Shown here in pieces: positions 18,716-38,483 of a stretch of 64,000 bases of DNA. How positions within the stretch are numbered: the stretch's first letter is position 1; each line of letters opens with the position of its first letter. The notes under the pieces were generated by a model that worked only from the letters and a program-made list of their open reading frames with translations, made no database searches and was not told the DNA's origin. Both the position numbers and the translations under genes were made by a program. The stretch is from the NCBI RefSeq assembly GCF_016865365.1, contig NZ_AP024469.1, forward strand, positions 372,001 to 436,000, in the 5' to 3' direction. Origin of the DNA: Geobacter sp. SVR (GTDB lineage Bacteria; Desulfobacterota; Desulfuromonadia; Geobacterales; Pseudopelobacteraceae).

Positions 18716-19185
18716 AACGCTTCACCATGATGTTCCCTATCCTGGCTCTGGCCGGGTTGCTTGTTACGATTGCGGCCTGTGCCCAGATGAAAACCTTGCC
18801 GAGTCTTCCGGCCTCCCATCCTGAAGAGCTTGCCGCCGGGCGGGTAAGCTGCGCTGAGTGCCACGAGGATCAGCAAAAGGGGACCATGAAGCCGTTTGCC
18901 AACTTCAACCATACTACGGCGTTCGTTAAGAACCACCGTTTCTATGCCTCTTCGGACGACCGCCTTTGCGCCACCTGCCACAAGCAGGCATTCTGCAGTG
19001 ACTGCCATACCAACCAAGTGGAAATGAAGCCTTCCATAAAATATGGGTACCGTCCCGATCGCGAAATGCCTCACCGCGGGGACTTTCTGACAATTCACAA
19101 GATTGAAGGCAAGGTTGACCCGTCCAGCTGCTATCGTTGCCACGGCAGGGCCAACAATGCACGCTGCATAGCCTGCCATCGATAG
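18712..19185 (+). CDS. Pentaheme c-type cytochrome lipoprotein
   Basis: Electron carrier of the porin-cytochrome conduit. The 157-aa protein has a lipoprotein signal (LLVTIAAC, Cys near residue 23) and five CXXCH motifs: CAECH, CATCH, CSDCH, CYRCH and CIACH. Extra His residues (NFNHTTAFVKNHRF) can supply distal ligands. ATG overlaps the porin stop (ATGA), implying coupled translation and stoichiometric assembly. The larger cytochrome gene starts 8 bases downstream. Confidence 0.9.
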   Translation: MKRFTMMFPILALAGLLVTIAACAQMKTLPSLPASHPEELAAGRVSCAECHEDQQKGTMKPFANFNHTTAFVKNHRFYASSDDRLCATCHKQAFCSDCHTNQVEMKPSIKYGYRPDREMPHRGDFLTIHKIEGKVDPSSCYRCHGRANNARCIACHR

Positions 19186-19193
19186 GAGAAACC

Positions 19194-23762: not shown

Positions 23763-26246
23763 ATGATGAGAAAAAGCACAAGTATGCTGCACTGTCTGCT
23801 GGTTGCCCTGTTTTTATTGGCAATGGCAGGCTGCGGCGCAAACAACGTGGCTGGCACCGCAGACAGCAGCCCGAAGACGGGCGCCTTGAAGGCCTCGCTC
23901 GATCTGCCGACATCTAAGGTTGCCCAGTTGGCAGTCGGCGGTATCGCTACGGTCGAGTTCACGGTAACCGGTTCCGGGAGCAACGGCCCCCTGCCGGTCG
24001 TGAAGAAGTCCTTCGCTGCCTCGGCCACATCAGGCCAGGTTGACGGCATTTATCCCGGCACGGTTGCGGTTGCCGTGTATGCCAAGGACGCCAGCGGCAA
24101 CACCCTGCTCGAAGGCTTTGCCCTCAACGCCACCGTAGCCTCCGGCGCCACCACCGATGTGGGTGCAATCAAGATGTCTCCGGTCGTTACGAAAGCTCAG
24201 GACACCCCCTGTATCGGCTGCCACGAAACCACCCTGGACAAAACCGGGCAGAGTGTCGTTGCGCTCTACAAGCAGTCAGGCCACTACACGAACAGTAACC
24301 AGGTTCCCCTGACCAGCGGCGGGACGAAGCAGCCCGGCTGCGCCGGCTGCCACGATTCTTCGCATAACAACCCGACACCCGACGCCAGCGGTCGGTGCGG
24401 TGACTGCCACAGCTCCGTCAACGCGAACCATGAAGGTAATACTGTCTACGTTCAGGATGTGAATGGCGGCGTCAGGAATAACTGCGGCACTTGCCACCAG
24501 CCGCACAACCCCCTCGGCCCGATCGTGGGCGGCAGCTGCGTGAAGTGCCATGCCGTCGGTCAGAATAAGTTCAACGGCGGCGTCGCCGGTCTTGTCAACG
24601 ACAACAACGGCGTGCGCGCCATTGTCCCTGAATTCGGCAAGAATTCTCACCACGTCAGTGGTCGTACTGTAACCGACGCTGACTGCGCGGTCTGTCACTT
24701 GGAAGGCAAGGTCGTCAATGGCGCCATTGCGGTGGATACGAACTTCCACATGAAAGACAGCAAGATCTATCTGCGCGATGGCGGCGGTGTTACCAGCTTC
24801 GCCAGCGAGATCGGCGGAGACAAGCGCAGCACCTACACCGGCAACCTCAAAGGCTTTGTCTGGGATCCGGCCAACCCGGACCACAACCTGATGGACCAGT
24901 TCTGCTTCTCGTGCCACAACAGCAACGGTGCACTGTCCGCCGTCGGCATCGCTTCCGGCAACAGCGCAACCAATCCGTTCAACAGTGGCCTGACCAATGC
25001 TTATGACCAGTTGAAGCGTCCGGCTGTCGTGGCTGTCTACGATCAGTTCAGCCCCAGCAATCCCTCGCATCACGCCGTCCGCGGCAAGAAGTATCAAACC
25101 AGCAAGAAACGTATCGAAATGACATCCGCTGAAAATGCGGCTTTCACCACCTACTCCGGCAACACCGCCGTAGACGGCGTTACCGCCGCCAACGGCCAGT
25201 GGAAGTACCCCGGCACCAAGCGCAAGACCATCTATGAAGCCGGTCGTTTCGCAGCCGGCTACAGCCCGCTCGGTACCACCACCTCGGTGCGTGACGACTC
25301 GACACTCCACTGCGGCGATTGCCACACTGTCGGACAGTGGAAAGCCGGCACCGTTCCGGTCGTCAAGGCCGACGGCACCGTCGACACCACCGCCAGCGCA
25401 TCCGTTGCCATCGGCGCCCACGGCTCGGCCAACGAGTACATGCTGCGCAACCGCCTCGGCACCGACGCGCTGCACAACATCACCAGCAACACTGCCGGCA
25501 CCTATGTCTGCTTCATCTGCCATAACCTGAGCACCTACTACGGTAGCACGCACTTCCAGGGCAACAACTCCTGCAACAGCGGCAACGCCAACTCGGCCGG
25601 CATGACCGGCTACGGCGGCGGCTTTGTTGCCAGCACCGGGCCCCGCGTGCCCAACATGGTCGGTTCTTCCGGCTACGGCAACGTGTTCGGCTACACCTGT
25701 GCCCACTGCCACAACGGTGGCACCGGACAGCAAGGCGGTTCCTTCGGCGCCATCCACGGCGTAGCCGCCACCACCACGTACGGCACCTACAGCACCAACA
25801 ACAACACCGCTGCCAGTGCTGCTGGCGAATTCAACATTGTGGCCAAGAAGTCCTATCGCTTCATGGGCGGTCTCTCCAATAAGTACCAGGGCGGCGGCAG
25901 CGACAGCAGGTGGGAGGCAACTCTGACCGCCAACCGCTTCGAAGGGTGCTACAACCATGACACGGCCGAAACGACCACTCCCAAGACTCTCTGGGGCTAC
26001 AAGGCCGGCACCGGCACCGCCGGCGTTACCAAAACCGGCCCGCAGACCAGCACCAACGGTGTTGTTGACGAGGCAGCCGAAAATCCTGCTACCTCCGGCT
26101 CAGCACCGTATGTTTCCGGCAGCGGTATGACCGGCTCTTGGGGCGCATGCAGCCACCACAAAGGCACCTCGACCTCCGGCGCGCCGACTGCGCCCGCACG
26201 GCAGTCAACCAGTTCCGGCGTGTTGCAGCGGCCGCTCAACTACTAA
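23763..26246 (+). CDS. Decaheme c-type cytochrome lipoprotein (827 aa)
   Basis: Large probable outer-surface cytochrome. Lipobox LAMAGC near residue 22. Residues ~35-140 form a heme-free beta-rich (Ig-like) domain; ten CXXCH motifs then follow: CIGCH, CAGCH, CGDCH, CGTCH, CVKCH, CAVCH, CFSCH, CGDCH, CFICH and CAHCH. Long Gly/Asn/Thr-rich spacers separate them. Two C-terminal near-motifs (GCYNHD, ACSHHKG) lack the CXXCH form. AAAGGAG precedes ATG. The size, lipobox and sparse hemes recall Geobacter outer-surface cytochromes, but I cannot equate it with OmcZ, OmcS or OmcB. Two terminators follow. Confidence 0.9.
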   Translation: MMRKSTSMLHCLLVALFLLAMAGCGANNVAGTADSSPKTGALKASLDLPTSKVAQLAVGGIATVEFTVTGSGSNGPLPVVKKSFAASATSGQVDGIYPGTVAVAVYAKDASGNTLLEGFALNATVASGATTDVGAIKMSPVVTKAQDTPCIGCHETTLDKTGQSVVALYKQSGHYTNSNQVPLTSGGTKQPGCAGCHDSSHNNPTPDASGRCGDCHSSVNANHEGNTVYVQDVNGGVRNNCGTCHQPHNPLGPIVGGSCVKCHAVGQNKFNGGVAGLVNDNNGVRAIVPEFGKNSHHVSGRTVTDADCAVCHLEGKVVNGAIAVDTNFHMKDSKIYLRDGGGVTSFASEIGGDKRSTYTGNLKGFVWDPANPDHNLMDQFCFSCHNSNGALSAVGIASGNSATNPFNSGLTNAYDQLKRPAVVAVYDQFSPSNPSHHAVRGKKYQTSKKRIEMTSAENAAFTTYSGNTAVDGVTAANGQWKYPGTKRKTIYEAGRFAAGYSPLGTTTSVRDDSTLHCGDCHTVGQWKAGTVPVVKADGTVDTTASASVAIGAHGSANEYMLRNRLGTDALHNITSNTAGTYVCFICHNLSTYYGSTHFQGNNSCNSGNANSAGMTGYGGGFVASTGPRVPNMVGSSGYGNVFGYTCAHCHNGGTGQQGGSFGAIHGVAATTTYGTYSTNNNTAASAAGEFNIVAKKSYRFMGGLSNKYQGGGSDSRWEATLTANRFEGCYNHDTAETTTPKTLWGYKAGTGTAGVTKTGPQTSTNGVVDEAAENPATSGSAPYVSGSGMTGSWGACSHHKGTSTSGAPTAPARQSTSSGVLQRPLNY

Positions 26247-26284: not shown

Positions 26285-26310
26285 CATTTGCTATGTTGTG
26301 ACGATTAACG

Positions 26311-26337
26311 CCGGCGCCTCGTGCGCCGGTTTTTTTT
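26311..26337 (+). terminator. Second intrinsic terminator
   Basis: CCGGCGC (26311-26317) / GCGCCGG (26323-26329) followed by eight T. Confidence 0.88.
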
Positions 26338-26597
26338 GGTGAGAGAGGCATACCGAAGGCTGAACTGCCACAAAGAACACAAAATACGCAAAAAGCTGAA
26401 GTTGCCTCATGCACGAAATATCCTCCGAAATATTTGCGGTCATCGAGTGTCGTCTTGAATGTTTTGCTTCGCCTTTAGTCTTCGGCCTTCAATCCTGTTT
26501 TTCGGTTCCAATTCCAAGGCCATTTTGCTATTATTTCACATTTGAATACAGACAACTACTCAGACACCAAGCCGTGGTTAATGGAGGGGTGGCCCGC
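26338..26597. other. Leader region of the cytochrome-maturation run
   Basis: A+T-rich sequence after the terminators and before the ResB-like gene; it probably contains the main promoter, but I could not pick a convincing -35/-10 pair. Confidence 0.4.
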
Positions 26598-27770
26598 ATG
26601 CCGCATAATAGCAACGAATCGTCGCTGAAGAGACTTTTGACAGTATCCCCTTGGTTCCCGCTGGTCTTTTTCGTCCTTCCTGCCTTGGTTGTGCTGTTCA
26701 ACTATTTTCCACGGCTGCGGGTAATCCCGTTCGGGCCGAATCTTCTCCTGCTCAATAACGTTGCCTTTCTGGCGCTGATGTTACTCAGGCTGGTCCGTGC
26801 CCTGGCGCTGCTGAAGACGCCCATGCCCCACGCCGGTGCCCCACGCCCGGAAGGGGAAGGAGACATGCGTCCCGGCCCCGCCGGCGCCGTAAGGAAAGAG
26901 CTGTCCGCCGCCGGATATTGTTTTGACGAGTCCGGTTCCTTCGGTGAAAAACGGAACGCCGCCACCATGGCAACTGCGATCCTCTACGCCGGGCTGACGC
27001 TCGCCTTTCTGGTAGGGTTTGTGGATTATTCCCGGCAGTATTCCAACGTAGTGCTCCTGGGAGTGGGCAACCCGATGAAGCTGAGTGAGGACGAGGAAGG
27101 TGTCATGATCGGCCAGGGATTTTTCTCCAGCACCCGCGGATTGCCGCAGCTACAGGTGATGAGGCAGATTCTGCCGAGCAGGGAGTGGCCCAAGGGAGCG
27201 ACCGAAATCGTTCTGTGTGACAACAGTAACAAAGAGGTGGCCCGGAAGATCGTGGCCTGGGAGGGGCAACCGCTCGTCTACGGCGGATTCGAATTCCATA
27301 TGGGGCGTTTTCTTCATGACATCAATCTGGTCATCACAACCGTCGATCGCGACAAGCTCGAGTTTGATAATTTCATAAAACTCCTGCCGATGCCCTCGCC
27401 GGAACCGCCGTATACCCACTGGCAACGTTTTACCGGTTATCGCGGTACGTGGCTCGTACGCTACGATCCGGTCGGCAAGGCCATTCGCTTGACCATGAAG
27501 AACAAAGAAGGCGCCACCCTGGCAGACGGCGTCACTATCTTTCAAAAGGACCAACAAAAGACCATAGGACCTTTTGTGGTCAAGATCGGTACCATGGGCG
27601 ACTGGTCGGAACTGCATGTCGTGCGCCATCGGCATATGACGCTGGTGTTTGCCGGTGTGACCCTGGCCTTCATAGGGCTGGTGCTCAGGCTCCTCTTCCG
27701 GCCGCAGCTCGTCTGGCTGCAGGAGACGGTGGAGGGGACGAGGGTGTGGACAGCGGGGAAAGGATTATAA
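26598..27770 (+). CDS. ResB-like cytochrome c biogenesis protein (short form)
   Basis: Membrane protein of the system II (Ccs) cytochrome c maturation type, about 390 aa. Four predicted membrane helices: two near the N-terminus (WFPLVFFVLPALVVLFNYF and LLLLNNVAFLALMLLRLV), one near residue 140 (TAILYAGLTLAFLVGFV) and one near the C-terminus (LVFAGVTLAFIGLVLRLLF), with a periplasmic beta-rich part between the last two. ATG at 26598 has GGAGGG nine bases upstream; longer frames add an unlikely leader. The CcsB gene follows without any gap, the usual resB-ccsB order. Confidence 0.8.
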   Translation: MPHNSNESSLKRLLTVSPWFPLVFFVLPALVVLFNYFPRLRVIPFGPNLLLLNNVAFLALMLLRLVRALALLKTPMPHAGAPRPEGEGDMRPGPAGAVRKELSAAGYCFDESGSFGEKRNAATMATAILYAGLTLAFLVGFVDYSRQYSNVVLLGVGNPMKLSEDEEGVMIGQGFFSSTRGLPQLQVMRQILPSREWPKGATEIVLCDNSNKEVARKIVAWEGQPLVYGGFEFHMGRFLHDINLVITTVDRDKLEFDNFIKLLPMPSPEPPYTHWQRFTGYRGTWLVRYDPVGKAIRLTMKNKEGATLADGVTIFQKDQQKTIGPFVVKIGTMGDWSELHVVRHRHMTLVFAGVTLAFIGLVLRLLFRPQLVWLQETVEGTRVWTAGKGL

Positions 27771-28607
27771 ATGGCTTACTGGGAAACGATTTTCTTCTGG
27801 GTTACGCTGGTACTGTTCTCTTTGGCAACCGGTGGCTACATCTATTCCATCGTTTTCAAGAATCCGGCGTTCATGCCCAAGATGACCTGGCTGGTTGCAC
27901 TGGGTCTCGTGGCACTGACGGTTGCTATCGGCGCCCGCTTCCAGGCCACTGGGCATCTGCCTTGGTCCGGAGATTACGAGAGCAGTCTCATGGGAGGATG
28001 GTTTATAATTGGCGGAGCTTTGTTGGTGGGGTGGCGAAACCCGAAGCTACAGGGATTTTCCATGGCGACAACGCCTCTGGTGATCTTTCTCATGGCCTAT
28101 GGCTACATGCAGAGCCCGGAACTTACCCCCATGGCGGCCAGTCTGAAGACTATCTGGCTCTATATTCATGTTTACTTCGCCTGGCTCGCCTTTGGCGCCT
28201 ATGCCCTGGCCATGGCGGCCGGTGTACTCTTTCTGCTGAAGAAACGCGATGCCGCACGGCCAATACAAAACCCGGCCTATGACCGTTTTCCTTCCCTGGC
28301 CAGTCTGGACGAACTGATTTTTCGCTATGTAGTGTTCGGCTTCATCACTGATACGATCATGATCGCTGCCGGCGCGGTTTGGGCCAAGGATCTCTGGGGC
28401 AGCTACTGGAGCTGGGATCCGGTCGAAACCTGGTCGCTGGTTTCCTGGCTGATCTACGGCATCGCCATCCATCTGCGCGTCACGTTCGGCTGGCGGGAGA
28501 ACCGGCTGGCCTGGTTAGTCATCTCGGCACTATCGACCGTAATCATTACCTTCTTCGGTATCAATCTGGTGGTAAGCTCCAGTTTACACGCGTTCAAGGT
28601 GCGGTGA
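27771..28607 (+). CDS. ccsB: Cytochrome c biogenesis protein CcsB/CcsA (WWD family), copy 1
   Basis: Heme-handling subunit of system II cytochrome c synthase. 278 aa, about eight membrane helices, with the tryptophan-rich WWD motif WGSYWSWD at residues 209-216 and candidate heme-ligand histidines H62 (GHLPW) and H133 (YIHVYFAWLAFG). Starts immediately after the ResB-like stop. A close paralog lies at 31251-32081. The surrounding multiheme cytochromes are the expected clients. Confidence 0.92.
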   Translation: MAYWETIFFWVTLVLFSLATGGYIYSIVFKNPAFMPKMTWLVALGLVALTVAIGARFQATGHLPWSGDYESSLMGGWFIIGGALLVGWRNPKLQGFSMATTPLVIFLMAYGYMQSPELTPMAASLKTIWLYIHVYFAWLAFGAYALAMAAGVLFLLKKRDAARPIQNPAYDRFPSLASLDELIFRYVVFGFITDTIMIAAGAVWAKDLWGSYWSWDPVETWSLVSWLIYGIAIHLRVTFGWRENRLAWLVISALSTVIITFFGINLVVSSSLHAFKVR

Positions 28608-28677
28608 GAAAGGCATAAACAGACTGGAGACTAAGGGTGAAAATTTAACTCTTCAGTTTTCAGCTGATTCTAAAGAC

Positions 28678-30030
28678 ATGCTCAAAAAAGTGACGAAATT
28701 CCTCAGTTCTCTCAAGTTTACCATCTGGCTAATCAGTCTGCTGAGTTTCATGTTCCTGCTAGGTCTCTGGATACCGCAGAAACGGCTGGTCAGAGAGATG
28801 TATGTTCAATGGCACACCAATGCGCCCAACTTAGTAACGTTCCTCGATACCCTCCAGTTGACGGACATTTACGCATCTCCGATCATGCTGACCCTCTGGA
28901 CGCTCTTTTTCATCAACCTGGCGCTGGTCATGTGGCAGCGTCTGCCATTGATCAAAAGCCGTATTGCCATTTCCGACAGTAAAATCGCCGACCCAGAGAT
29001 GGCGCCCGGCTATCCTTTTCGGGCCTGCTATTCTTTGCCGGAGCAACTGCTCGATACTGCCATCACGGAGCGCCTCCGTAAGCGAAGGTATACAATTCTG
29101 GGTGACTCCTCAGGATTCTACGGGGTCAAGAACCGCTTGTCGCCAATAGCGTTCGGCTTGTTTCACTTGAGTTTTTTTCTGATACTTCTGGGGGGGCTTA
29201 CCAGCATCTACACCGAGTTCATCGGCTATTTGGAACTGGCTGAGGGAGAGGAGTTTCACGGTGATATCGATCGCTACGTTCAGCGCCCGGTTCCCAAGAT
29301 GCCGAAGCTCGGCACCCCACCGCAAGTGGCTTTTGCAATCAAAAGCATTGTGCCGACAGCGTCCGGGTTTACCGAGACGGGACTCAAGGTGCAGATAGCG
29401 GATGCAAAAGGTGAAACGCACAAACTCGATATAAACAAGCCCTACAATGTTGACAGCAGCAGTTTTGTGCTCAAGTACCTGGGAGTGGCGCCGCTGTTTG
29501 TCCTCAAGGACGCATCAGGCAAGGAACTCCAAGGCGCCTATCTGAAACTGGATGTGCTCAAGGGGAAAAAGGGCACCTTTTACATGGGAGGGTATGAGTT
29601 CCAGACCCTTTTTTACCCCGACTACGTGGTGAGCAACGGTGAACATACGACCAAGTCATCGGAGTTCAAAAATCCCACCTTTAGAATTGCTGCAGGGAAA
29701 GATGGAAAGCTGATTGCCGAGGGGGTGGTTTCGGTAGGAGGGGAACTGCAGTTTGACGGTCAGCGCCTTGAGCTGCGGGAACTTCCCTTCTGGGTTCGTT
29801 TTTTCGTCACCAAGGATCAAGGGATTCCGATCATTTATACCGGGCTTTTTATTGCTTCACTGGCGATAGTCTGGCGTTTTCTGTTCTTTAAGCGGGAGCT
29901 GGTTGGCGCCGTGAGAGTGCGGGACGGCCAACGGTTACTTCTGGTCGCGTGCCGGTCGGAATTTTACAAAAGTTTGGCGGAAGAAGAATTCGAGAAACTG
30001 TTTGGAGAACTGCTCAAGGCCGAAGGCTGA
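28678..30030 (+). CDS. resB: ResB-family cytochrome c biogenesis protein (long form)
   Basis: Partner of CcsB in apocytochrome/heme ligation. 450 aa with ResB topology: helices near residues 12-30 and 60-80, a third near 160-182 (LFHLSFFLILLGGLTSI), a long periplasmic domain and a last helix near 380-400 (PIIYTGLFIASLAIVWRFLFF). The motif KFTIWLISLLSFMFLLGLWIPQ resembles the family N-terminus. ATG at 28678 has no strong ribosome-binding site. It is 70 bases after ccsB copy 1 and upstream of a WG-repeat lipoprotein. Confidence 0.87.
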   Translation: MLKKVTKFLSSLKFTIWLISLLSFMFLLGLWIPQKRLVREMYVQWHTNAPNLVTFLDTLQLTDIYASPIMLTLWTLFFINLALVMWQRLPLIKSRIAISDSKIADPEMAPGYPFRACYSLPEQLLDTAITERLRKRRYTILGDSSGFYGVKNRLSPIAFGLFHLSFFLILLGGLTSIYTEFIGYLELAEGEEFHGDIDRYVQRPVPKMPKLGTPPQVAFAIKSIVPTASGFTETGLKVQIADAKGETHKLDINKPYNVDSSSFVLKYLGVAPLFVLKDASGKELQGAYLKLDVLKGKKGTFYMGGYEFQTLFYPDYVVSNGEHTTKSSEFKNPTFRIAAGKDGKLIAEGVVSVGGELQFDGQRLELRELPFWVRFFVTKDQGIPIIYTGLFIASLAIVWRFLFFKRELVGAVRVRDGQRLLLVACRSEFYKSLAEEEFEKLFGELLKAEG

Positions 30031-30114
30031 AGAAACGGGCTGAAGCCGGAAGACTGGCGATAAGGCTGGAACATCAGCCTCCAGGCGTCAAGGTAATACA
30101 AAGGAGCTAACTGC

Positions 30115-31200
30115 ATGAAATATTCAATGATAATTGTACTGATGTTGTTGGCAATCTGTGCCGGCTGCCAGAGAAGTAACACCAGCGTGGTCAATTCGAA
30201 GGACACCTCCCGTTTGCTAGTCAAACAGAATGGAAAATTCGGTTATTGCGATCGCAACGGAAACATGGTGATTCAGGCCCAATTTGAAAGCGCCTCGATC
30301 TTTTCCGAAGGGCTGGCAGCAGTGAGCCAGAACGGCAAGACCGGCTTTATCGATACCAGCGGCAAGATGGTCATCGAACCTCGATTCGACGGAGCTTCAT
30401 TCTTTCGAGAAGGAAAAGCGGCGGTGCAGTTTGGCGATCGTTGGGGGTATATAGATAAAACCGGAAAAAACGTCAGCGAGTATAATTTCATTGCTACATC
30501 GGCTTTTTTTGAAAAACTGGCGTCCGTGGTTGTAATATCCGATCCCAAGGTAGGTGAAGCCAAGGCAGGATTCATCAACGAACAGAACAAATTAACCATC
30601 ACACCGCAATTTGACGACGCCACCTATTTTTCGGAAGGGCTGGCCGCTGTGAAGCTAGGCGGCAAATACGGCTATGTGGATGCAACTGGAAAGACAGCAA
30701 TTCCTGTAGCTTTTGACGAGGCCGGTCCGTTTCGGGACAAGCGGGCAAGGGTGAAAATCAATGGGAAATATGGGATCGTCGGTTTCATCGATCGCGATGG
30801 GAAAATTGCCATCACACCTCAGTATGGTGAAGCCACAGACTTCCATGAGGGGATTGCCGCAGTGCGCAATCGAGGTGCCCGGGAAGACAAATGGCTGCTG
30901 ATCGATACGACAGGTGCCAAGGCCGTAGACCAGGAGTTCGACGCACCGACCATATTCAGCGAGGGGTTGGCACCATTTGTCGAGAATAAAAAAGTCGGCT
31001 ACTTGGATAAGACCGGAAAAGTCGTGATCAAGCCTCAGTTCGAGGCAGGCTCGATCTTCTTCGAGGGGGTGGCTCCAGTCAGGCAGGATGGCAAGCTCGG
31101 ATTCATCGATAAAAGCGGTGCCATGGTCATCAAACCGGTTTTCGAGTGGGATCAGCGCACCATCGACATGTACCTGACCTATTATGCAATGATAAAATAG
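30115..31200 (+). CDS. WG-repeat lipoprotein
   Basis: Exported lipoprotein, 361 aa, lipobox AICAGC (Cys near residue 18). Nine WG/KWG-type repeats of about 35-40 residues follow, each with the pattern G-[FY]-x-D-x-x-G-K-x-x-I-x-P-x-F-[ED]-x-A-x-x-F-x-E-G-x-A-x-V (for example YIDKTGK, FIDTSGK, YLDKTGK). The fold is probably a beta-propeller-like or solenoid array for protein contacts. Strong AAAGGAG before ATG. Position between resB and a second ccsB suggests a role in cytochrome maturation or a surface client, which is inference. Confidence 0.85.
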   Translation: MKYSMIIVLMLLAICAGCQRSNTSVVNSKDTSRLLVKQNGKFGYCDRNGNMVIQAQFESASIFSEGLAAVSQNGKTGFIDTSGKMVIEPRFDGASFFREGKAAVQFGDRWGYIDKTGKNVSEYNFIATSAFFEKLASVVVISDPKVGEAKAGFINEQNKLTITPQFDDATYFSEGLAAVKLGGKYGYVDATGKTAIPVAFDEAGPFRDKRARVKINGKYGIVGFIDRDGKIAITPQYGEATDFHEGIAAVRNRGAREDKWLLIDTTGAKAVDQEFDAPTIFSEGLAPFVENKKVGYLDKTGKVVIKPQFEAGSIFFEGVAPVRQDGKLGFIDKSGAMVIKPVFEWDQRTIDMYLTYYAMIK

Positions 31201-31250
31201 ACAAAATTTAATCGAAAATAGATGCGAGATGAGGAGTGAATGAGGTAGCA

Positions 31251-32081
31251 ATGGCACAAGGCGAGACCGTATGTTTTTGGATTACTTTGACATGTTACGC
31301 GATAGCAAGTGGTGGGTACATCCAGTCGTTTGTCTTAAATAGCCAACGTTTGCTGCCGAAGTTGACCGTTCTGGTGGCAGTCGGTCTGGTTATCCACAGC
31401 TGCGCCATCGGGTTCCGCTATTTGAACACCGGGCATCTCCCGTGGGCAGGAGACTATGAGAACGCGCTCATGGGTGGATGGTTCATTATTGTCGGCACCC
31501 TGTTCGCCACTTTGCGCAATCGATCCCTGCAAGGATTGGGGGCTAGCACCATGCCACTGGTTATCATTATGATGTTGTACGGATTCGTGCGCCATCCGGT
31601 GATGACGCCGATGGCGGAAAATCTTAAGAGCTACTGGCTGTACGTGCATGTCTACTTCGCGTGGCTGGCCTTCGGGTCATATGCTCTGGCAATGGCGACC
31701 GGCGTTATTTATCTGCTCAAAAAGAAAGATGGCGGCTGTAATCAGTTCTATGGGCGCTTCCCTTCACTCGAGCGTCTGGATGAGCTAATTTTCCGGTACA
31801 TGGTATTCGGATTTGTCACAGATTCGATTATGATCACGTCCGGAGCGTTCTGGGCCAAGGATATCTGGGGCAGCTATTGGAGCTGGGATCCAGTGGAAAC
31901 GTGGTCACTTATTGCCTGGTTGACCTACGGCAGTTGCATCCACATGCGAGTTATCTTTGGCTGGCGGAATGCGCGCCAGGCATGGATGGCGGTCGCCGCA
32001 CTAAGTACCGTCATTATCGCCTTCTTTGGCGTCAGTCTTATGGCTGGGAGTCAACACGTATTCAATCAGCCGATGAGATGA
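31251..32081 (+). CDS. ccsB: Cytochrome c biogenesis protein CcsB/CcsA (WWD family), copy 2
   Basis: Paralog of the protein at 27771-28607, 276 aa. Same length, order of helices and WWD motif (WGSYWSWDPVETWSL), and the same GHLPW and YVHVYFAWLAFG histidine segments. The start ATG at 31251 is fixed by alignment (MAQGETVCFWITL versus MAYWETIFFWVTL); the GTG at 31236 would add five residues. No ResB partner is directly downstream; the next ResB-like gene is at 37251. A second specificity, for example for particular cytochromes, is possible. Confidence 0.92.
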   Translation: MAQGETVCFWITLTCYAIASGGYIQSFVLNSQRLLPKLTVLVAVGLVIHSCAIGFRYLNTGHLPWAGDYENALMGGWFIIVGTLFATLRNRSLQGLGASTMPLVIIMMLYGFVRHPVMTPMAENLKSYWLYVHVYFAWLAFGSYALAMATGVIYLLKKKDGGCNQFYGRFPSLERLDELIFRYMVFGFVTDSIMITSGAFWAKDIWGSYWSWDPVETWSLIAWLTYGSCIHMRVIFGWRNARQAWMAVAALSTVIIAFFGVSLMAGSQHVFNQPMR

Positions 32082-32149
32082 GTAAATAGAAAGAGAAAGA
32101 GCGAGAGTCCTCGTTTTTTCCCGTCTGTATTTAGAAAGGTTCGAATGCA

Positions 32150-32605
32150 ATGGATTCATTCAATCAGTATCTGACCCATCTACTGTTGCAGTCGCCAGGG
32201 TTGGGCGTAGCCGTAATGATGAACAACTATTTTCACGACGTGGCCACGGCACTAATGATCGGAAGCGCATGTGCCCTTCATGCGATTATCAGGATACAGA
32301 CATCAATGAATACCCCGATAGGAACTCTGTTTTTTCTCAAAACATACAAACAGATGGTGAAGCTTTTCCGGTTCTCATTTTGGTGGATCATCATCGGTGG
32401 CGTGCCACGCACCATTTTCTATGCCAGTTTCGAATGGAATCACTTTGCCGACAAGCAGCAGGTTCCGGCACTGATGGTGAAGCACATCCTCATGGCTGCT
32501 GCTGTCATCTATGGCATCATTGCCTGGAGACGGCTGAAGGTGAAGGTGGCGGTGTTGCAGGAATCGCTACCGATGGAAATGCAGAAAAATTTTGTTGAGG
32601 GCTAA
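32150..32605 (+). CDS. Small multi-pass membrane protein of unknown function
   Basis: No family recognised. 151 aa with three to four hydrophobic segments: FHDVATALMIGSACALHAII, FRFSFWWIIIGGVPRTIFYA and VKHILMAAAVIYGIIAW. Conserved-looking His residues lie in or next to helices (NNYFHD, CALHAI, FEWNH, MVKHIL), suggestive of heme or metal contact (inference). It sits between ccsB copy 2 and the ABC/DUF2318 module in the same direction. Confidence 0.75.
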   Translation: MDSFNQYLTHLLLQSPGLGVAVMMNNYFHDVATALMIGSACALHAIIRIQTSMNTPIGTLFFLKTYKQMVKLFRFSFWWIIIGGVPRTIFYASFEWNHFADKQQVPALMVKHILMAAAVIYGIIAWRRLKVKVAVLQESLPMEMQKNFVEG

Positions 32606-32679
32606 GCATTGAGGGTTGAGAAAACCTATCATCATGCAGTTCTTATCTCTCAACCTCTAACCCCCAACGGTTTTTAAAG

Positions 32680-33909
32680 ATGTTACTCCGTATTCTCAAA
32701 AATTCCTTCCTCAAACGCCCTAAGGCGGTCTTTCTGGTACTCCTCTCCATAACGATGGGGGCAGCCGTTGCGACGGCCTTCCTCGGCATAGCCGGCGAGG
32801 TATCCCACAAAATGGCGCTGGAACTGCGCAGCTACGGTGCCAATATTCTGTTGGAGCCTGCAGCGGCTGATGGCGGCGGTTCTCTGCGTGAGGGTGATCT
32901 GCCCAAGATTAAGACCGTTTTCTGGAAATACAACATCACTGGTTTTACTCCCTACCTGTTCGGGGTGGTTGACCTTTCGTCCGACCAAAAGCACGAGCGG
33001 GGGGTGATCTCCGGTACCTGGTTCAGCAAACAGCTTGAGGTGGAGGGAGAGGATTCGAGCGTACAAGGGGTCAAGATCATTGCTCCTTGGTGGGAGGTAC
33101 AGGGGACATGGCCATCCGCTCCCGATGAGGCGATCATAGGTGCCGGATTGGCGCGCCGGCTCGGTGCCGGCCTTGGTCAGGATGTTTCGGCATCCGCTCA
33201 TGGGCGAACACAGCGATTTCATGTAGTGGGAATCGTTACAACCGGCGGCTTTGAAGAAGAGCAGCTTTTTGCGCCATTAATCACCGTCCAGGAACTCCTG
33301 CAGAAGCCCGGCCAGATCTCCCGGGTTCTGGTGAGCGCGCTTACGGTGCCCATGGACGACTTTGGCCGTAAAGACCCGGCCACCATGACCAAAGACGAGT
33401 TCGAGAAATGGTATTGCACCGCCTATGTGACCTCCGTAGCCAAGAATGTGGAGGAGGTCATGGCCGGCAGCCGGGCCAAGCCGATCTGGCAAATCGCCAG
33501 CGCCGAGGGGGAATTGCTGAAGAAGCTGAACGGCGTGATGATCTTCCTGACAATCTTGGCCCTTGGCGCAGCCGCCACTGCTGTTTCTACCAGCCTAATG
33601 GCATCCATGGCCGAGCGCGGCCCGGAAATCGCTCTGATGAAGGCAGTGGGGGCCGACCGATTCCAGATCAGCGCCATCTTTTTGGGAGAAATACTGGCAA
33701 TATCCCTGGTTGGCGGTTTAGTTGGGTATCTTATTGGTGACCGGCTTGGGGCACTTATCAGCCACACGGTCTTCAATTCCACGATAGTGTCTCCACTCTG
33801 GCTCTTCCCTACTGCCATAGTCTCGGCCTTGGTTGTGGCTATTATCGGCAGCATAGCCCCTCTGCGGCATGCCCTGCTGATCGAGCCGGTGAAGGTGTTG
33901 AAAGGCTGA
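32680..33909 (+). CDS. ABC transporter permease, FtsX/MacB type (first)
   Basis: 409-aa inner-membrane permease with an N-terminal helix (AVFLVLLSITMGAAVATAFLGIAG), a large MacB-type periplasmic domain, and three C-terminal helices typical of FtsX (GVMIFLTILALGAAATAVSTSL...ERGPEIALMKAVGA). Together with the second permease (33978) and the ATPase (35177) it makes a complete heterodimeric exporter-like or mechanotransmission ABC system. In Campylobacter jejuni the p19/Ftr1 iron locus has the same pair next to a DUF2318 protein; that comparison, from recall, suggests an iron-related role. Confidence 0.85.
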   Translation: MLLRILKNSFLKRPKAVFLVLLSITMGAAVATAFLGIAGEVSHKMALELRSYGANILLEPAAADGGGSLREGDLPKIKTVFWKYNITGFTPYLFGVVDLSSDQKHERGVISGTWFSKQLEVEGEDSSVQGVKIIAPWWEVQGTWPSAPDEAIIGAGLARRLGAGLGQDVSASAHGRTQRFHVVGIVTTGGFEEEQLFAPLITVQELLQKPGQISRVLVSALTVPMDDFGRKDPATMTKDEFEKWYCTAYVTSVAKNVEEVMAGSRAKPIWQIASAEGELLKKLNGVMIFLTILALGAAATAVSTSLMASMAERGPEIALMKAVGADRFQISAIFLGEILAISLVGGLVGYLIGDRLGALISHTVFNSTIVSPLWLFPTAIVSALVVAIIGSIAPLRHALLIEPVKVLKG

Positions 33910-33977
33910 AGTTAGCTAGGCAGAATGTTTTAATTCTTCTTCTTTAGCTCTTAGTCAGTCTCCCGAAAAGGTTTTGC

Positions 33978-35144
33978 ATGAACAAACGTCGCTGGCTCGT
34001 ACATATCGTCGCACGTGCCCTGGCCCATCGCAAAGGGCGTACGATCCTGCTACTGGCCGTCCTTACCATGGCATCCAGCCTGGCCACGGCCCTGGGGATC
34101 GTCTCATCCTCCATGGGCAAGAGGGTGGCGGAAGAGGTGCGAAAATACGGTGCCAATCTGGTTATCGTCCCCGAAATGGCACGTCTGAACGTGGGAAGCG
34201 GCGGGCTCAATTTCGGAGAGATCAGCGAACCGGAATACCTGGAGCAACATAAGGTGGAGAATGCTCTGGCCAAAAGCGGCCTAAAAGCCGGCCGTTCATT
34301 CCACCTTCGTGGTGCATTGCATTTCAGGAAGGGTGACGTCATGGTGGAAGGGATCAATTTTGCCGATATCCGCCAGTTGTTCCCCTGGTGGCAGATCAGG
34401 GGGCAATGGCCGACTGTGGGCGAAGCTGTGGTGGGACATGACGTTGCTGACCGCTATGGCATGAAAACCGGAGAAACGGTGGAACTGACCGGACCGGAGC
34501 AGACTGTACGACTGCGTATCTCGGGTATCGTCTCAACGGGTGGCGAGGAAGACGACCTGCTTTTCCTGGCCTTGCCGGAGCTCCAACGGGTATTGGGGCT
34601 TGAGGATCGCTTGACCTCCGTGCGTCTGCTGGTCACCGCAGAGGGGGACAGCCACAGTCTTGGCTCGAGGGCGGCGGCGCTTCAGAGCCTCTATTCCGGA
34701 GCCAGGGTTACGGAGGTGCGCCAGATTGCCCGTACCAGTGAAGGACTGTTGGTCAAGGTTAAGCTGCTGATGTTGCTGGTTACCGCCGTGGTGTTGATAT
34801 CGGCAGGCAGCAGTGTGACCGGGACCATGAGCACTACGGTACTGGAGAGGAGCAAGGAAATCGGACTGATGAAGGCCATGGGGGGCACTCGTTGGGGTGT
34901 GATGCTCATATTTTGCAGTGAAGCGGCCATGCTGGGCATCCTCGGAGGCATTGCCGGTTATTTTTTCGGCAGCGTCATAGCACAGTTCATCACCCGCACA
35001 GTTTTTTCGGCGCCTGCTGAATTCGCTCCGTGGTTCGCTGGCATTTCCCTGCTGGTTAGCCTGTTCCTGGCGCTGCTGGGGAGTCTGGGGCCGATGGTTT
35101 CGGTGTTCAGGTTGGATCCGGTAAGAAGTCTCAGGGGCGAATAA
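33978..35144 (+). CDS. ABC transporter permease, FtsX/MacB type (second)
   Basis: 388-aa permease paralogous to the one upstream: N-terminal helix (TILLLAVLTMASSLATALGIVSSS), MacB-like periplasmic core (residues ~45-240), then three helices with the conserved TTVLERSKEIGLMKAMGGTRWGV stretch. AAAAGG lies 6 bases before ATG. Sixty-eight bases separate it from the first permease; the ATPase gene starts 32 bases downstream. A heterodimer with the first permease is expected. Confidence 0.87.
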   Translation: MNKRRWLVHIVARALAHRKGRTILLLAVLTMASSLATALGIVSSSMGKRVAEEVRKYGANLVIVPEMARLNVGSGGLNFGEISEPEYLEQHKVENALAKSGLKAGRSFHLRGALHFRKGDVMVEGINFADIRQLFPWWQIRGQWPTVGEAVVGHDVADRYGMKTGETVELTGPEQTVRLRISGIVSTGGEEDDLLFLALPELQRVLGLEDRLTSVRLLVTAEGDSHSLGSRAAALQSLYSGARVTEVRQIARTSEGLLVKVKLLMLLVTAVVLISAGSSVTGTMSTTVLERSKEIGLMKAMGGTRWGVMLIFCSEAAMLGILGGIAGYFFGSVIAQFITRTVFSAPAEFAPWFAGISLLVSLFLALLGSLGPMVSVFRLDPVRSLRGE

Positions 35145-35176
35145 AACGGATTGCACCGCACGATTTTGCGGTTCAG

Positions 35177-35875
35177 ATGGAAAGGGTTCCCGTGATATCC
35201 AACATGATAGAAACCAAGGGCTTGACGCGCAGCTACGGTGACATTTGCGCCCTTAAGCCACTTGACCTACAGGTGTCTGAAGGGGAATGGCTGTCGGTCA
35301 TGGGGCATTCCGGTTCAGGCAAGAGTACCTTCATGAACCTGATCGGCGGGCTTGACCGGCCCAGCGGCGGCTCGCTGAGAGTTGGCGGGGAAGACATGCT
35401 GAGCCTCAACGAGGACGGCCTGGCCCGTTTCCGCCGCGAGTTTGTCGGCATCATCTTTCAGCAACATCACTTGATACCTTATCTGACTGCAGTCGAAAAC
35501 GTCATGATGGCACAGTACTTCCACAGTGTCCCCGACGAATCTGAGGCCGTCACCGCCCTGGAGCGCGTTGGACTGGGACACCGGCTGAAGAACCGGCCAG
35601 GCGAGCTTTCCGGGGGGGAACAGCAGCGGGTCTGCATCGCACGGGCGATCATCAACAGTCCCAAGCTGCTCCTTGGGGACGAACCGACCGGAAACCTCGA
35701 TCACAAGAGCACGATCATGGTTATGGAACTGCTCAGGGAATTGCGGGCCGAGGAGCGTTTCACTGTCATCATGGTCACTCACAATCAGGAGGTTGCCGGT
35801 TGGGGGGATCGCACCATCTATCTGGATGATGGGGTGCTGGTGCGTGAAGAAAAGTCGAAAGTTTCTGACTCCTGA
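35177..35875 (+). CDS. ABC transporter ATP-binding protein (LolD/MacB class)
   Basis: Energises the two FtsX permeases upstream. Walker [11 protein letters not shown]-loop [11 protein letters not shown], signature LSGGEQQRV, Walker [13 protein letters not shown] and the switch histidine in VTHNQE are all intact. ATG at 35177 is reported; a GTG at 35192 preceded by GGAAAGGG is an equally good start and shortens the protein by five residues. The gene ends inside a short heptad-repeat spacer before the DUF2318 gene. Confidence 0.92.
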
Positions 35876-35897
35876 CTTTTGGATTCTGAATTCCTTT
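35863..35897 (+). repeat. Degenerate 7-bp tandem repeats in an operon spacer
   Basis: TTCTGAC, TCCTGAC, TTTTGGA, TTCTGAA, TTCCTTT run head to tail from 35863, overlapping the ATPase stop codon. Similar but looser heptad-like sequences occur in the other spacers of this run (28625-28672, 32636-32665, 33930-33965). Confidence 0.45.
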
Positions 35898-35913
35898 CCT
35901 CATAGGTCTTACA

Positions 35914-37254
35914 ATGGCACTTATATACAAACTGATACCCAACCTGTTGGCATTCGGAGGAGTTATACTCCTGCTGATGAGGGGCTGCGCTGGGATGCGC
36001 AAGAGGGTGGCAATTGCCGGATGTGCCAGTTTTATTGCTGCCATGGCAGCGACATTTCCCTTTGTGCGGATGGCGGGTGAGACTGCCGTATTCAACCTGG
36101 TGAAAATGTCCTTGGGAGTGAGCTTTCTGTGGTTGTGGGGGGTGGCAGCTGTGACGCTCTATAGTGCTACCTCCCGCAGCCTTCAGAGGAGGCTGGGCGA
36201 GCGGATTGCCGCTACTGCCGCAGGGGCGATAACCGGAGCATTGATTGCCGGAACACTGGCCGGCATCATCAGCGGCCTTCGCCTGGTGGGAGCCGAAAAA
36301 GCGCCGACGGTGTTCGCACTGGCTACCAGCGCTGCCATTGCGATAACGCTCCTGCTTCTGGTATTTGAACAGATGATTCCGCGACCTCTTGTCGTGTCTC
36401 CGGCTTCTCTGGTGGCGTCTGTGTTGGGGCTATTGTTCTTCAACTCTTCAGCCATGCTCCGCCTTGATCTATTTGCGCCACTGACCATGAGGGTGATGAA
36501 GTTCGCTCATGATTTCGTGCACCAGTTTTTCGAATCCATGTTGATCCCAGATCATCTCTTTTTCAGCACTACGCTCTGGAATTACATTGGATTCTTGTTC
36601 GGCAACGAGGTTGGCTTCTGGGGGGCTTTGATTATCTGGCTGACTCCTCCTCTTCTGATCCTTGCTGCTCATGCCTTCGATCCCCTACCATCGGTTGCCC
36701 ATATCCGTCAGGGCGCCCGTCGACGCAGGCTGATTGCAGATGCCATCGCCATGCGCCGGCTCCGCATGATTGTACCGGGCCTGGCGCTGGTCATGTTCGC
36801 CGGCGCGATCTATCAAAGCCGTTTTCCCACGGTCGAATACTGGGATCCGAAACCACTAGCGATTTCGGCAAGCCCTTCCGGCGAGATCATCATCCCCATC
36901 AAAGGGGATACGGATCTGGAGGATGGCAAGCTTCACAAATACATCTACTCGCAAGGGGGTAGGACGGCGCGTTTTTTTGTCCTGGTGAAGCCAAACGGGG
37001 AGTGGACGGTGGACCTCGATGCCTGCGCCATCTGCAAACCGGACGGCTATGGTCAGGCAGAAGGGACAGTGATCTGCTACTACTGCAAGACGCTGATACC
37101 TCTTGACACGGTCGGCAAGCCCGGGGGCTGCAATCCGGTTCCGATGCGGTTTACAGCCAAGGAGGACGGCATCCATATCGATGCGCTGGCGCTCATCAAC
37201 AGTTGGGATAATACGGTGCAGGCGACAACGCGGGGCCAGGAGGGTGGCAAATGA
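35914..37254 (+). CDS. DUF2318-domain membrane protein, putative iron-transport component
   Basis: 446 aa: about eight N-terminal membrane helices, then a C-terminal extracytoplasmic DUF2318 domain. The latter has paired cysteine motifs C-x2-C (CAIC and CYYC) and the family ending IPLDTVGKPGGCNPVPM, proposed to bind metal or act in redox. Homologs are found with P19/Ftr1-type iron uptake, for example next to two FtsX permeases and an ATPase in Campylobacter. Here Ftr1 and P19 themselves are not present in the window. The stop overlaps the next start (ATGA), so it is coupled to a ResB-like gene. Confidence 0.85.
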   Translation: MALIYKLIPNLLAFGGVILLLMRGCAGMRKRVAIAGCASFIAAMAATFPFVRMAGETAVFNLVKMSLGVSFLWLWGVAAVTLYSATSRSLQRRLGERIAATAAGAITGALIAGTLAGIISGLRLVGAEKAPTVFALATSAAIAITLLLLVFEQMIPRPLVVSPASLVASVLGLLFFNSSAMLRLDLFAPLTMRVMKFAHDFVHQFFESMLIPDHLFFSTTLWNYIGFLFGNEVGFWGALIIWLTPPLLILAAHAFDPLPSVAHIRQGARRRRLIADAIAMRRLRMIVPGLALVMFAGAIYQSRFPTVEYWDPKPLAISASPSGEIIIPIKGDTDLEDGKLHKYIYSQGGRTARFFVLVKPNGEWTVDLDACAICKPDGYGQAEGTVICYYCKTLIPLDTVGKPGGCNPVPMRFTAKEDGIHIDALALINSWDNTVQATTRGQEGGK

Positions 37255-38483
37255 AACGTTATTCCGACGCCATCTGGAGGCTTCTTTCGTCACGCCTGCT
37301 GACTCCGCTGGTGATCGGCCTGTTTCTGCTGTTGTATATCGCCATCGCATTCAGAACCGAGGATGCCTTGATGGCCCTGATCACGGTTACCCGCTCCACC
37401 CCCTTGCTGATTGCCCTGTTCGCCCTGATCCCGCTCAACAGGTTGTTGCGCCTGATACAAGAGATCCGTGACCATTTTGCCTTGCAGCGTCTTATACGGG
37501 GTATAAGCTCGGATTTCCGCCCCGAACTGTTTGACGAAGCAGTGGAGATGGAAGGCTCGGCAGTTCCGTTTGCTGATGTCGGTCGCCGCTTGACCGCGTC
37601 CGGATACACAATCTCCGAAAAAGGAACCATTCTATCCGCATGGAGAGGGATCGGCATTTTTCCTGCCCGCTTCATGTTTCTCGGCGCCACCGCGCTGCTC
37701 TTCTGCGGTATCCTCTTGAGCCTTGGCGGACGGATGTCATACCGGGCAACGCTTATCGAAGGCGAACCGCTGCCAGTAAAAGAAGGAGAGCCGGCGGGCG
37801 GGCTTGTGGGGATAATCCTTACAGAAGAAAATGGTCTGTTTCTGGGGAAAAAGTTGGCAATAGAAGTTTCTCCTCAAGGTGACAGACAAGCGAAACGTAT
37901 TTTCGGTCTCTATCCTCCAGCCCGTTGGCGGGGATCGTTCGTCTATCCGCGCTATCTGGGGATCGGTCTGTATTATCGTCTCTCAGCACCGGATCTGCCG
38001 GATGCCTATGGAGCACACGATGTCCTCAGCATTCATCCGGCGGGCAAGGAGGACAGCAGGCAGGTGCCAGGAACTCTTTACCGTCTGGTCTTCAGCCTAG
38101 CCCAGCCGGATGACGGCAGTGATCCATACGTGACCGGGCGCATGACGGTCCGCTTCAAGCTGCTGAAAGGAGCGGAGCTTCTGTTTGAGGGTTCGGCGCC
38201 TAGGGGCGGAAGCTTTTCCCGCGATGGATACCACCTGGAGTTCCCTGATATACGGCGTTTGGTAATAACTGACTTCATTCATGACCACGGGGTGATGCTC
38301 ATCTGGTCGGCGATGGCACTTTATACGGCTGCCCTTCTGTTCTGGCTTTTTGTGTGCCTGGCCTGTCCCCGGCGCGAGATCGTTTTTGTCCGCGACGGCG
38401 ACAAAGTGTTGACCGCCTCACGTGCCGAGGGGCGCAGAAGAAAGCATGTGGGAGTATTCCATGAAGCGCTGGACATGCTGTAG
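37251..38483 (+). CDS. ResB-like membrane protein coupled to the DUF2318 gene
   Basis: 410 aa with ResB-like topology: two N-terminal helices (LVIGLFLLLYIAIAF and LLIALFALIPLNRLL), a third near 140 (FMFLGATALLFCGILLSLGG), a periplasmic beta-rich domain, and a last helix (MLIWSAMALYTAALLFWLFVCLAC) followed by a cytosolic basic tail. It is closest in layout to the short ResB-like protein at 26598. AGGAGG precedes ATG, which overlaps the DUF2318 stop by four bases. The physical and translational link of a heme-ligation factor with an iron-handling module is unusual. Confidence 0.75.
   Translation: MKRYSDAIWRLLSSRLLTPLVIGLFLLLYIAIAFRTEDALMALITVTRSTPLLIALFALIPLNRLLRLIQEIRDHFALQRLIRGISSDFRPELFDEAVEMEGSAVPFADVGRRLTASGYTISEKGTILSAWRGIGIFPARFMFLGATALLFCGILLSLGGRMSYRATLIEGEPLPVKEGEPAGGLVGIILTEENGLFLGKKLAIEVSPQGDRQAKRIFGLYPPARWRGSFVYPRYLGIGLYYRLSAPDLPDAYGAHDVLSIHPAGKEDSRQVPGTLYRLVFSLAQPDDGSDPYVTGRMTVRFKLLKGAELLFEGSAPRGGSFSRDGYHLEFPDIRRLVITDFIHDHGVMLIWSAMALYTAALLFWLFVCLACPRREIVFVRDGDKVLTASRAEGRRRKHVGVFHEALDML

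Follow-up and report, generated by a model that had tools for sequence, protein, structure and literature searches.

A conserved ResB/ABC/DUF2318 gene module of Geobacterales and its candidate role in the maturation of tailed multihaem cytochromes

Bacteria of the order Geobacterales encode cytochromes with tens of haems, many of them used for metal and electrode respiration, and the assembly of these proteins is poorly known. Here we analyzed a module of eleven genes from Geobacter sp. SVR, located in a 64,000-nucleotide stretch of DNA (the window; positions 372001-436000 of a 4.72-Mb single-contig genome, with positions at this locus given in window numbering), that joins components of two described systems—System II cytochrome c maturation and the Fet iron uptake system of Campylobacter. 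In System II, the transmembrane (TM) histidine TM-His1 of the ResB/CcsB part is a haem ligand required for haem transport (PMC6299221, PMC12285233), and dedicated synthases exist for unusual haem sites, namely NrfI and CcsA1 (PMC12285233, PMC7096707). The Campylobacter Fet set consists of two FtsX-type permeases, an ATPase, and a DUF2318 protein (PMC6083913, PMC10783030), the last with the motif CxxC-x(13)-CxxC-x(14,15)-C (PMC6083913). Genes for DUF2318 are said to map almost always to fet clusters (PMC6083913), and, according to a prediction by the Fet authors, reducing power passes from FetBCD and through FetA (PMC10783030).

Since the module is almost confined to genomes encoding cytochromes with a distinctive C-terminal tail (GGIHG...RF...CY...CxxH...RPxxY-COOH), it probably builds or delivers these tailed cytochromes, and we favor, with some reserve, the interpretation that it serves as their dedicated maturation machine, of System II type.

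Conservation of the module and co-occurrence with tailed cytochromes

A check of open reading frames (ORFs) and a Pfam/NCBIfam scan confirmed the coordinates and orientation of eleven genes at 26598-38483, all on the + strand, in the order ResBL1, CcsB1, ResB2, WG-repeat protein, CcsB2, TM4, FtsX1, FtsX2, ATPase, FtrD, and ResBL3 (Table 1). The original prediction for this locus had described eleven co-oriented genes with three ResB-like and two CcsB proteins, and both counts were borne out; the last ResB-like protein has no family match, and its label is backed by profile comparison and fold. Nine of the eleven genes had been named, with the WG-repeat protein and the four-TM protein (TM4) left out. 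Also predicted was translational coupling of the DUF2318 gene (ftrD) to a ResB-like gene, with conserved synteny proposed as a check and a lack of it in relatives as a ground for refutation. We found that the ftrD stop and the ResBL3 start share ATGA at 37251-37254, a 4-nucleotide overlap present in 40/40 loci of named genomes (counted in loci L055-L094 only, taking the start codon nearest the aligned start), and that the linkage of DUF2318 with ResB is conserved in relatives (19/19 fetched relatives, 40/40 named loci).

PF10080, the Pfam family formerly called DUF2318, was detected in 49 of 57 genomes searched (own genome counted), and its matches were divided, according to score and length of the open frame, into a small class, a class of ~490-520 amino acids (aa), and the class of the window protein (440-484 aa), which occurred in 20 of the 57. 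In all 19 fetched relatives the window-class ftrD is preceded by the ATPase gene and followed by ResBL3, and the core FtsX-FtsX-ATPase-FtrD-ResBL3 is conserved within Geobacterales. The 40 loci from the scan of named genomes all bear names that are Geobacter-like, Geobacteraceae, or Desulfuromonadales/Desulfuromonadaceae, and carriers include Geomonas, Geotalea, Oryzomonas, Geomobilimonas, and Geomesophilobacter; these loci (L055-L094) share genomes with the 19 relatives (L031-L049), for example L034/L063. Across 141 genomes of the order (own included), 46 had a strong match for ResBL3, 45 for window-class FtrD, and 43 for TM4 (six weak ones dropped), with all genomes strong for FtrD or TM4 falling inside the 46. 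These 46 are the module genomes below, a weak ResBL3 match in G443 having been dropped. Among 395 genomes of the phylum, strong ResBL3 matches came only from three of the order, with three more weak matches (best E-value 7.6e-5), and no ResBL3 match was found on plasmids.

The ResB-like genes are specific to this class of locus: ResB2-like, ResBL1, ResBL3, and TM4 genes were each absent from 24 control loci with other FtrD classes, of which 2 contained CcsB. Module loci longer than 19 kb (n = 36, drawn from two overlapping sets and thus not 36 genomes) instead contained ResBL3 in 36, ResB2 in 31, TM4 in 31, CcsB in 30, and ResBL1 in 28 cases. With the core and the 40/40 overlap kept and ResB missing from the controls, the arrangement is not due to chance. 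Moreover, the two halves of the module occur together in at least three gene orders—the ABC half precedes ResBL1-CcsB1-ResB2-WG in L060, L062 (genome G475 by matched contig and coordinates), L063, L075, and L077—and their proximity has thus been kept through rearrangement.

Some module loci carry additional genes. In L031, L032, L043, L047, L085, L090, and L093, B12-type radical SAM-like genes (named by eye in L031) are placed between ResB2 and TM4 and behind ResBL3, and a radical SAM gene also follows the module of the window (38657-39670). At L034:9843-12147 the module has gained a further FtsX-like/ATPase pair together with a DUF4418 protein, and at L038:10280-13422 a HlyD-like protein (by eye) with additional FtsX and ATPase genes.

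Upstream of the module, on the same strand and at ~0.1-4 kb, an ORF with 10-28 CX2-4CH motifs was present in 11/11 loci, comprising the window and ten relatives picked for long contigs (distances were taken from a fetched boundary near the module edge and are approximate). At the control FtrD loci, any ORF with at least four such motifs within ~20 kb was found in 6/24. The original prediction had placed the module directly beside cytochrome operons; a cytochrome gene is indeed its neighbor, but the 351-nucleotide spacer holds a terminator-like hairpin followed by eight T, so that this gene adjoins the module without clearly belonging to its transcript. Terminator-like matches in the window were overall near chance (24 vs 20.1 expected), and the hairpin at 26310 must thus be judged on its own sequence; sigma-70 promoter matches fell under chance expectation (8 vs 11.3), and we therefore claim no promoter.

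In the tail of these cytochromes, the last CXXCH is followed by GIHG (AIHG in the window), RF-xG, CY, CxxH, and, in most cases, RPxxY at the very end; none of 16 tails matched a Pfam or NCBIfam family. A tail model of 136 positions, built on 16 sequences from 14 genomes (their cytochromes are encoded next to or close by a module, L136 being the one that lies downstream), matched 44 of the 141 genomes of the order—41/46 with the module vs 3/95 without (Fisher p 3e-26). Removing the 14 model genomes left 27/32 vs 3/95 (p 2e-19), and restriction to genomes of ≥90% completeness and ≤5% contamination gave 37/40 vs 0/63. Because Fisher p-values ignore relatedness, contrasts within a genus are the better control: by the same test, the tail was found in 15/17 module genomes vs 0/22 others in genus g7 (39 genomes, full count) and, among the 19 genomes listed for genus g17, in 9/9 vs 1/10.

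The phylum search returned the tail in 4/395 genomes, three within the order and a fourth (G371; E-value 9.5e-6, positions 1-95) without CY...CxxH. When 41 loci covering part of the tail matches were read out (L144-L184, some genes repeated), CY and CxxH were both present in 39, the exceptions being L175 (G371) and L183 (G500, cut); the L173 tail carries CY...CGQH, and the final residue is Y in 39/40 distinct tails. Of the 90 distinct ORFs with three or more CXXCH in the examined loci, 40 have the tail, but many of these loci were chosen for it. In several genomes, extra matches on other contigs or far off, for example six matches in G469 and a second one in G019 at 150 kb, imply that the module would act in trans. 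The conserved CY...CxxH tail encoded beside synthase genes is a candidate non-CXXCH site at which haem might be attached.

Component proteins and features of the locus

Comparison with ResB2 by hhalign gave 98.2% for ResBL3 and 97.9% for ResBL1, whereas treatment of ResBL1 and ResBL3 as a single family was dropped (hhalign 11%). One of the 41 members of the ResBL3 family touches PF05140 (E-value 0.0097). The AlphaFold2 model of ResBL3 (predicted local distance difference test score, pLDDT, 91.5) recovered CcsBA twice and CcmF as top PDB entries in Foldseek (E-values 6e-5, 7e-4, and 2e-3; TM-scores low), and VIA-align 2 aligned 224 residues with CcsBA 7s9y residues 3-344 (Z 8.5, root-mean-square deviation [rmsd] 5.1). 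Membership of the ResB superfamily is thus supported for ResBL1 by profile comparison and for ResBL3 by profile comparison and predicted fold. The two proteins differ from ResB2 at the haem site. H163 of ResB2, the TM-His, is present in 23/23 rows, whereas in TM3 no histidine occurs at ResBL3 141-163 (41 rows) or ResBL1 120-145 (18 rows); near the edges of the region, single ones occur at ResBL3 136 and 140 and ResBL1 119, and one at ResBL3 164 in 11/41. Of the three ResB-like proteins, only ResB2 therefore has the residue for a canonical haem site. In CcsB1, all 14/14 rows retain the WWD tryptophans along with H133, H234, and H273, and the TIGR03144 score of this protein (176.5 bits) lies just under the cut-off of 187.6. 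No ResA/CcdA-type Pfam match was found among the eleven genes.

FtrD belongs to a family whose Pfam name is membrane iron-sulfur containing protein. Its periplasmic domain has the pattern CxxC-x13-CxxC-x14-C, with C371, C374, C388, C391, C406, and H341 invariant in 38/38 sequences; in the membrane half, H199, H203, and H214 (38/38) and also M192 and M195 are invariant. Alignment to FetA of its own genome and of relatives is confined to residues 251-429. In the FtrD model (pLDDT 82), residues 323-438 resemble Rieske ferredoxins by VIA-align 2 (1vm9: Z 8.7, rmsd 3.0, 103 aligned), ranks 1-15 all being Rieske-type; for the membrane half, Foldseek and VIA-align returned only scattered transporter and helical rows. 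The ligand motif of Rieske proteins is CxH/CxxH, and these C-x-H/C-x2-H ligands are replaced in FtrD by CxxC/CxxC, invariant in 38/38. A predicted Rieske-like fold with cysteines in place of histidines would suggest a redox or metal centre in this domain.

In searches of PDB sequences, FtsX1 gave four matches, to MacB/YbbP-type permeases, and TM4, ResB2, FtrD, ResBL3, and the cytochrome returned nothing useful (for TM4, one chance-level row, E-value 0.14). Binding of haem b by TM4 is no more than an idea. Distant paralogues of TM4 (L115-L122; HD...RTFTY...KH) lie near B12-type radical SAM-like and LuxE-like genes, names that were given partly by eye, and in 4/8 loci the 10 kb examined include a CcsA gene; these paralogues are linked to cytochrome biogenesis.

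Table 1. Features of the module and of the adjoining cytochrome gene (window numbering)
Feature	Position	Strand	Remarks
Multihaem cytochrome c, candidate client	23763..26246	+	827 aa, 10 CXXCH, lipoprotein-like start
C-terminal tail domain of upstream cytochrome	25698..26243	+	last CXXCH ... AIHG ... SYRFMGG ... CY ... CSHH ... RPLNY-end; no Pfam/NCBIfam family
Terminator-like hairpin, GC-rich, then eight T	26310..26338	+	between cytochrome and module
ResBL1, remote ResB homologue without TM haem-ligand His	26598..27770	+	PF05140 23.0 bits, under 24.6 cut-off
CcsB1 (CcsA/ResC type), WWD motif and conserved His	27771..28607	+	PF01578; TIGR03144
ResB2 with TM-His (H163)	28678..30030	+	PF05140, 82 bits
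WG-repeat protein, lipoprotein-like start	30115..31200	+	Pfam/NCBIfam; in same neighbourhood of many relatives
CcsB2, second CcsA/ResC-type protein	31236..32081	+	Pfam/NCBIfam
TM4, 151-aa 4-TM membrane orphan	32150..32605	+	family-less; invariant H29, H112, MMNNY.HD motif
FtsX1, MacB/FtsX-type permease (FetB-like)	32680..33909	+	FtsX/MacB_PCD
FtsX2, MacB/FtsX-type permease (FetC-like)	33978..35144	+	FtsX/MacB_PCD
ABC ATPase (FetD/LolD-like)	35177..35875	+	best NCBIfam model LolD, under its cut-off
FtrD-like/DUF2318 protein (FetA-like)	35914..37254	+	PF10080, formerly DUF2318
ResBL3, remote ResB homologue without TM-His	37251..38483	+	no Pfam/NCBIfam match; 4-nt overlap with FtrD

Elsewhere in the window, a possible outer-membrane conduit lies upstream of the module at 17330-20225 (a 461-aa family-less protein with five- and seven-haem cytochromes). 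A 676-aa protein with carboxypeptidase-regulatory domains and tandem TYPNGTVSVST-type repeats is encoded at 21530-23560, and a histone-deacetylase-family protein (PF00850) at 11706-12857.

Interpretation and rival explanations

The maturation reading draws on the analogy with NrfI and CcsA1 and on the reducing-power role predicted for FetA/FetBCD. Judging by their family and intact His and WWD residues, ResB2 with CcsB1/CcsB2 would carry haem across the membrane and attach it. ResBL1 and ResBL3 may serve as adaptors without haem, holding the tailed apocytochrome and docking the ABC/FtrD half, a half of the FetBCD-FetA kind (FtsX1-FtsX2-ATPase-FtrD) that would have been redeployed without its iron permease partner. 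ATP could drive movement of the MacB-like periplasmic domains, and electrons or thiol exchange through the Rieske-like all-Cys domain of FtrD might keep the tail cysteines and/or the haem iron reduced; alternatively, the FtrD/ABC half may work on the tail itself, with a special haem or cross-link forming at CY...CxxH. The gene set, its conservation and coupling, the remote homologies, the loss of TM-His, the predicted folds, and the co-occurrence of module and tail come from the sequence analysis; we infer the physical complex, the electron path, and the chemistry at the tail, which may be a haem acceptor, a cross-link site, or a sorting tag. Only tentatively do we propose the most specific form of this model—a new cytochrome c maturation system in which a System II variant is powered by ATP, includes a Rieske-like all-Cys redox subunit and two ResB adaptors without haem, and places haem or another Cys-linked modification at a hitherto undescribed C-terminal CY-Xn-CxxH site.

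Several observations weigh against a maturation role or against parts of it. The tail was found without a detected module in G032, G467, and G473 (83-85% complete), and was not detected in five module genomes, three of them at least 95% complete (G042, G048, and G512); the match in G500 is cut by a contig end, with 28/136 positions covered. ResB2 was not in range in 5/36 long module loci. In two of these (L044 and L064, the same genome, G035) ResBL1-CcsB1-ResB2-WG-TM4 lies ~15-21 kb off on the same contig and strand, in L080 (G469 by matched contig and coordinates) ResBL1 comes further on, and the remaining two are L068 and L083. From CY to CxxH the spacing is variable, with 9-83 residues separating Y from the second Cys, and CxxH, which is not CH, is unlike any haem c motif that we know of; together these speak against an ordinary haem c site. 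In the window, the terminator-like hairpin stands between the cytochrome gene and the module, and untailed giant cytochromes also occur near modules (for example, L123-L126 ORFs with 24-56 motifs). As for the structural comparisons, the Rieske match comes from a model of pLDDT 82 with Z of 8-9, modestly above background, and no FtrD match in Foldseek had an E-value below 0.03, the Rieske rows being at 0.097 or above; the ResBL3-CcsBA Z of 8.5 is likewise modestly above background, with the next unrelated row at 6.7.

The genomes with the tail only (L178-L182) reflect either missing contigs or maturation without the module. The giant cytochrome ORFs at L123-L126, in module flanks of two g17 genomes, contain 56, 37, 27, and 24 CX2-4CH motifs.

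Among the rivals, the most probable one, which we regard as unlikely, holds that the tail is a recognition tag and that the MacB/Lol-type ABC pair, FtrD, and the ResB-like proteins extract the tailed cytochrome or move it on to the outer membrane or cell surface, coupled to haem loading. The extreme C-terminal position of the tail and its final Y (39/40) are as in sorting tags, the best NCBIfam model for the ATPase is LolD (under cut-off), the L038 module has a further FtsX-ATPase pair with its HlyD-like protein, and MacB-family proteins extract lipoproteins and export toxins, among other tasks in the periplasm (PMC5985334). However, export or sorting leaves unexplained the coupling of FtrD to a ResB-like gene, the all-Cys redox domain, and the presence of ResB2 and CcsB. 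No outer-membrane channel gene was noticed as a constant partner, though no systematic search was made.

Less probable still is a general role in haem or iron handling, in which the ABC/FtrD half serves ResB2-CcsB by bringing, extracting, or reducing iron or haem b, with no role specific to the tail. MacAB-TolC is reportedly linked to protoporphyrin efflux, and the invariant His/Met cluster in the FtrD membrane domain, outside the FetA profile alignment, and the two invariant histidines of TM4 would fit such a role, as would the link of the MacB-type permease HrtB to haem removal (PMC5985334). On the contrary, the two other ResB/CcsA pairs of the genome have no PF10080 match nearby, the module tracks tailed cytochromes rather than cytochromes in general, and it has no good Fur-box-like site: the three intergenic stretches scanned around the module gave best sites with 8-10 mismatches to a consensus that may not fit the genus. 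The single 5-mismatch site of the window (31553) lies inside CcsB2, whereas the fet locus of the same chromosome has 4-mismatch sites ahead of its first gene (L050:13529) and at L050:2895, with none in ten shuffles. With 3 mismatches allowed, neither the window nor this fet cluster gave a site, which makes that scan uninformative.

That separate fet cluster encodes FTR1 (genome position 1657650), P19 (1656684), a FetA with a YHS domain, two FtsX proteins, an ATPase, and an AhpC/TSA-thioredoxin-type protein. The single genomic matches to FTR1 and to P19 (PF10634) both lie there, with none at the module locus, where the original prediction had already reported them missing; its equation of FtsX-FtsX-ATPase-DUF2318 with the Campylobacter Fet set also agrees with published work (PMC6083913, PMC10783030). 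Because the genome keeps its own fet cluster, the module is a paralogue and not a broken importer, and the idea of a decayed fet cluster was dropped once this cluster had been found. FTR1 matches occurred in 11/141 genomes of the order and 3/46 module genomes, the other 43 having none (many are draft genomes). In the ATPase tree, the module (20 rows, support 93/97), Ftr1-type (6 rows, 99/99), and small-FtrD-type (12 rows, 98/95) sequences formed separate clades, with the module weakly sister to the Ftr1 type (80/74). An iron uptake paralogue that owes its place next to ccs genes to descent alone is very improbable and largely refuted: it can point to sequence kinship with the genome's own fet cluster and to this weak placement in the tree, but the eleven genes have no Pfam match to FTR1, P19, YHS, or thioredoxin, 43/46 module genomes have no FTR1 match, and the ResB linkage outlasts changes of gene order, with the overlap in 40/40.

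Iron uptake is therefore an unlikely role for the module, and the rule that DUF2318 marks fet clusters does not hold in this order. A further DUF2318 system, distinct from both the fet cluster and the window module, is widespread in Geobacterales: at L001-L030, L051, and L095-L108, a small FtrD mostly has one FtsX and an ATPase beside it, without Ftr1. Overall, the original interpretation—supply or reduction of iron or haem at the site of cytochrome assembly—is partly supported. Iron supply is not supported, given the scarcity of FTR1, the separate fet cluster, the want of a good Fur-box-like site, and the way in which the module tracks one class of cytochrome, whereas haem handling or reduction may yet be part of what it does. 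That interpretation was made without the cytochrome tail, the missing TM-His of two ResB-like proteins, and the Rieske-like domain.

Novelty and comparison with known systems

Among the papers listed on ResB/CcsB/CcsA with Geobacter-type genera, FtsX, or cytochromes, a scope outside which preprints and most subscription papers fall, we found no description of the module; the DUF2318 literature found concerns Campylobacter, Avibacterium, and a metagenomic method. We take the module for a new form both of the System II maturation pathway and of the Fet-type ABC transporter, with a cofactor site that is possibly new as well. It offers a concrete, conserved candidate assembly machine with a predicted client signature and links an ABC type known from iron uptake to cytochrome assembly. 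The Rieske-like fold hypothesis for DUF2318/FtrD also bears on the Fet iron system, and module and tail together make direct knock-out and mass-spectrometry tests possible.

Compared with the System II synthases ResBC and CcsBA (PMC6299221), the module shares a ResB2 with TM-His, CcsB1 and CcsB2 of the CcsA/ResC type, and the WWD motif and conserved histidines of CcsB1. Its additions are two further ResB paralogues, neither of which has TM-His, together with an ABC transporter, FtrD, and TM4. Like Campylobacter fetMP-fetABCDEF, it has two FtsX-type permeases, an ATPase, and a DUF2318 membrane protein with CxxC-x13-CxxC-x14-C, but it lacks FetM/Ftr1, FetP/P19, the YHS domain, and the thioredoxins (FetE/F); the membrane half of FtrD does not align to FetA, the gene is coupled to a ResB-like one, and no good Fur-box-like site is present. 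FtsX and MacB_PCD domains with a cognate ATPase recall the MacB/type VII ABC family, which includes LolCDE and HrtBA (PMC5985334), whereas the partners here are FtrD and ResB-like proteins, with no Pfam match to a MacA adaptor or TolC partner among the eleven genes. The predicted fold of FtrD 323-438 is that of Rieske ferredoxins, from which the protein differs in having CxxC/CxxC and a fifth Cys for CxH/CxxH and in its membrane anchor. Finally, Wolinella NrfI (CXXCK) and CcsA1 (CX15CH) are, like the module as we read it, extra System II-type synthases for a multihaem cytochrome with an unusual site (PMC12285233, PMC7096707); the module differs from them in its eleven genes, its several possible clients per genome, and the variable spacing of the CY...CxxH tail.

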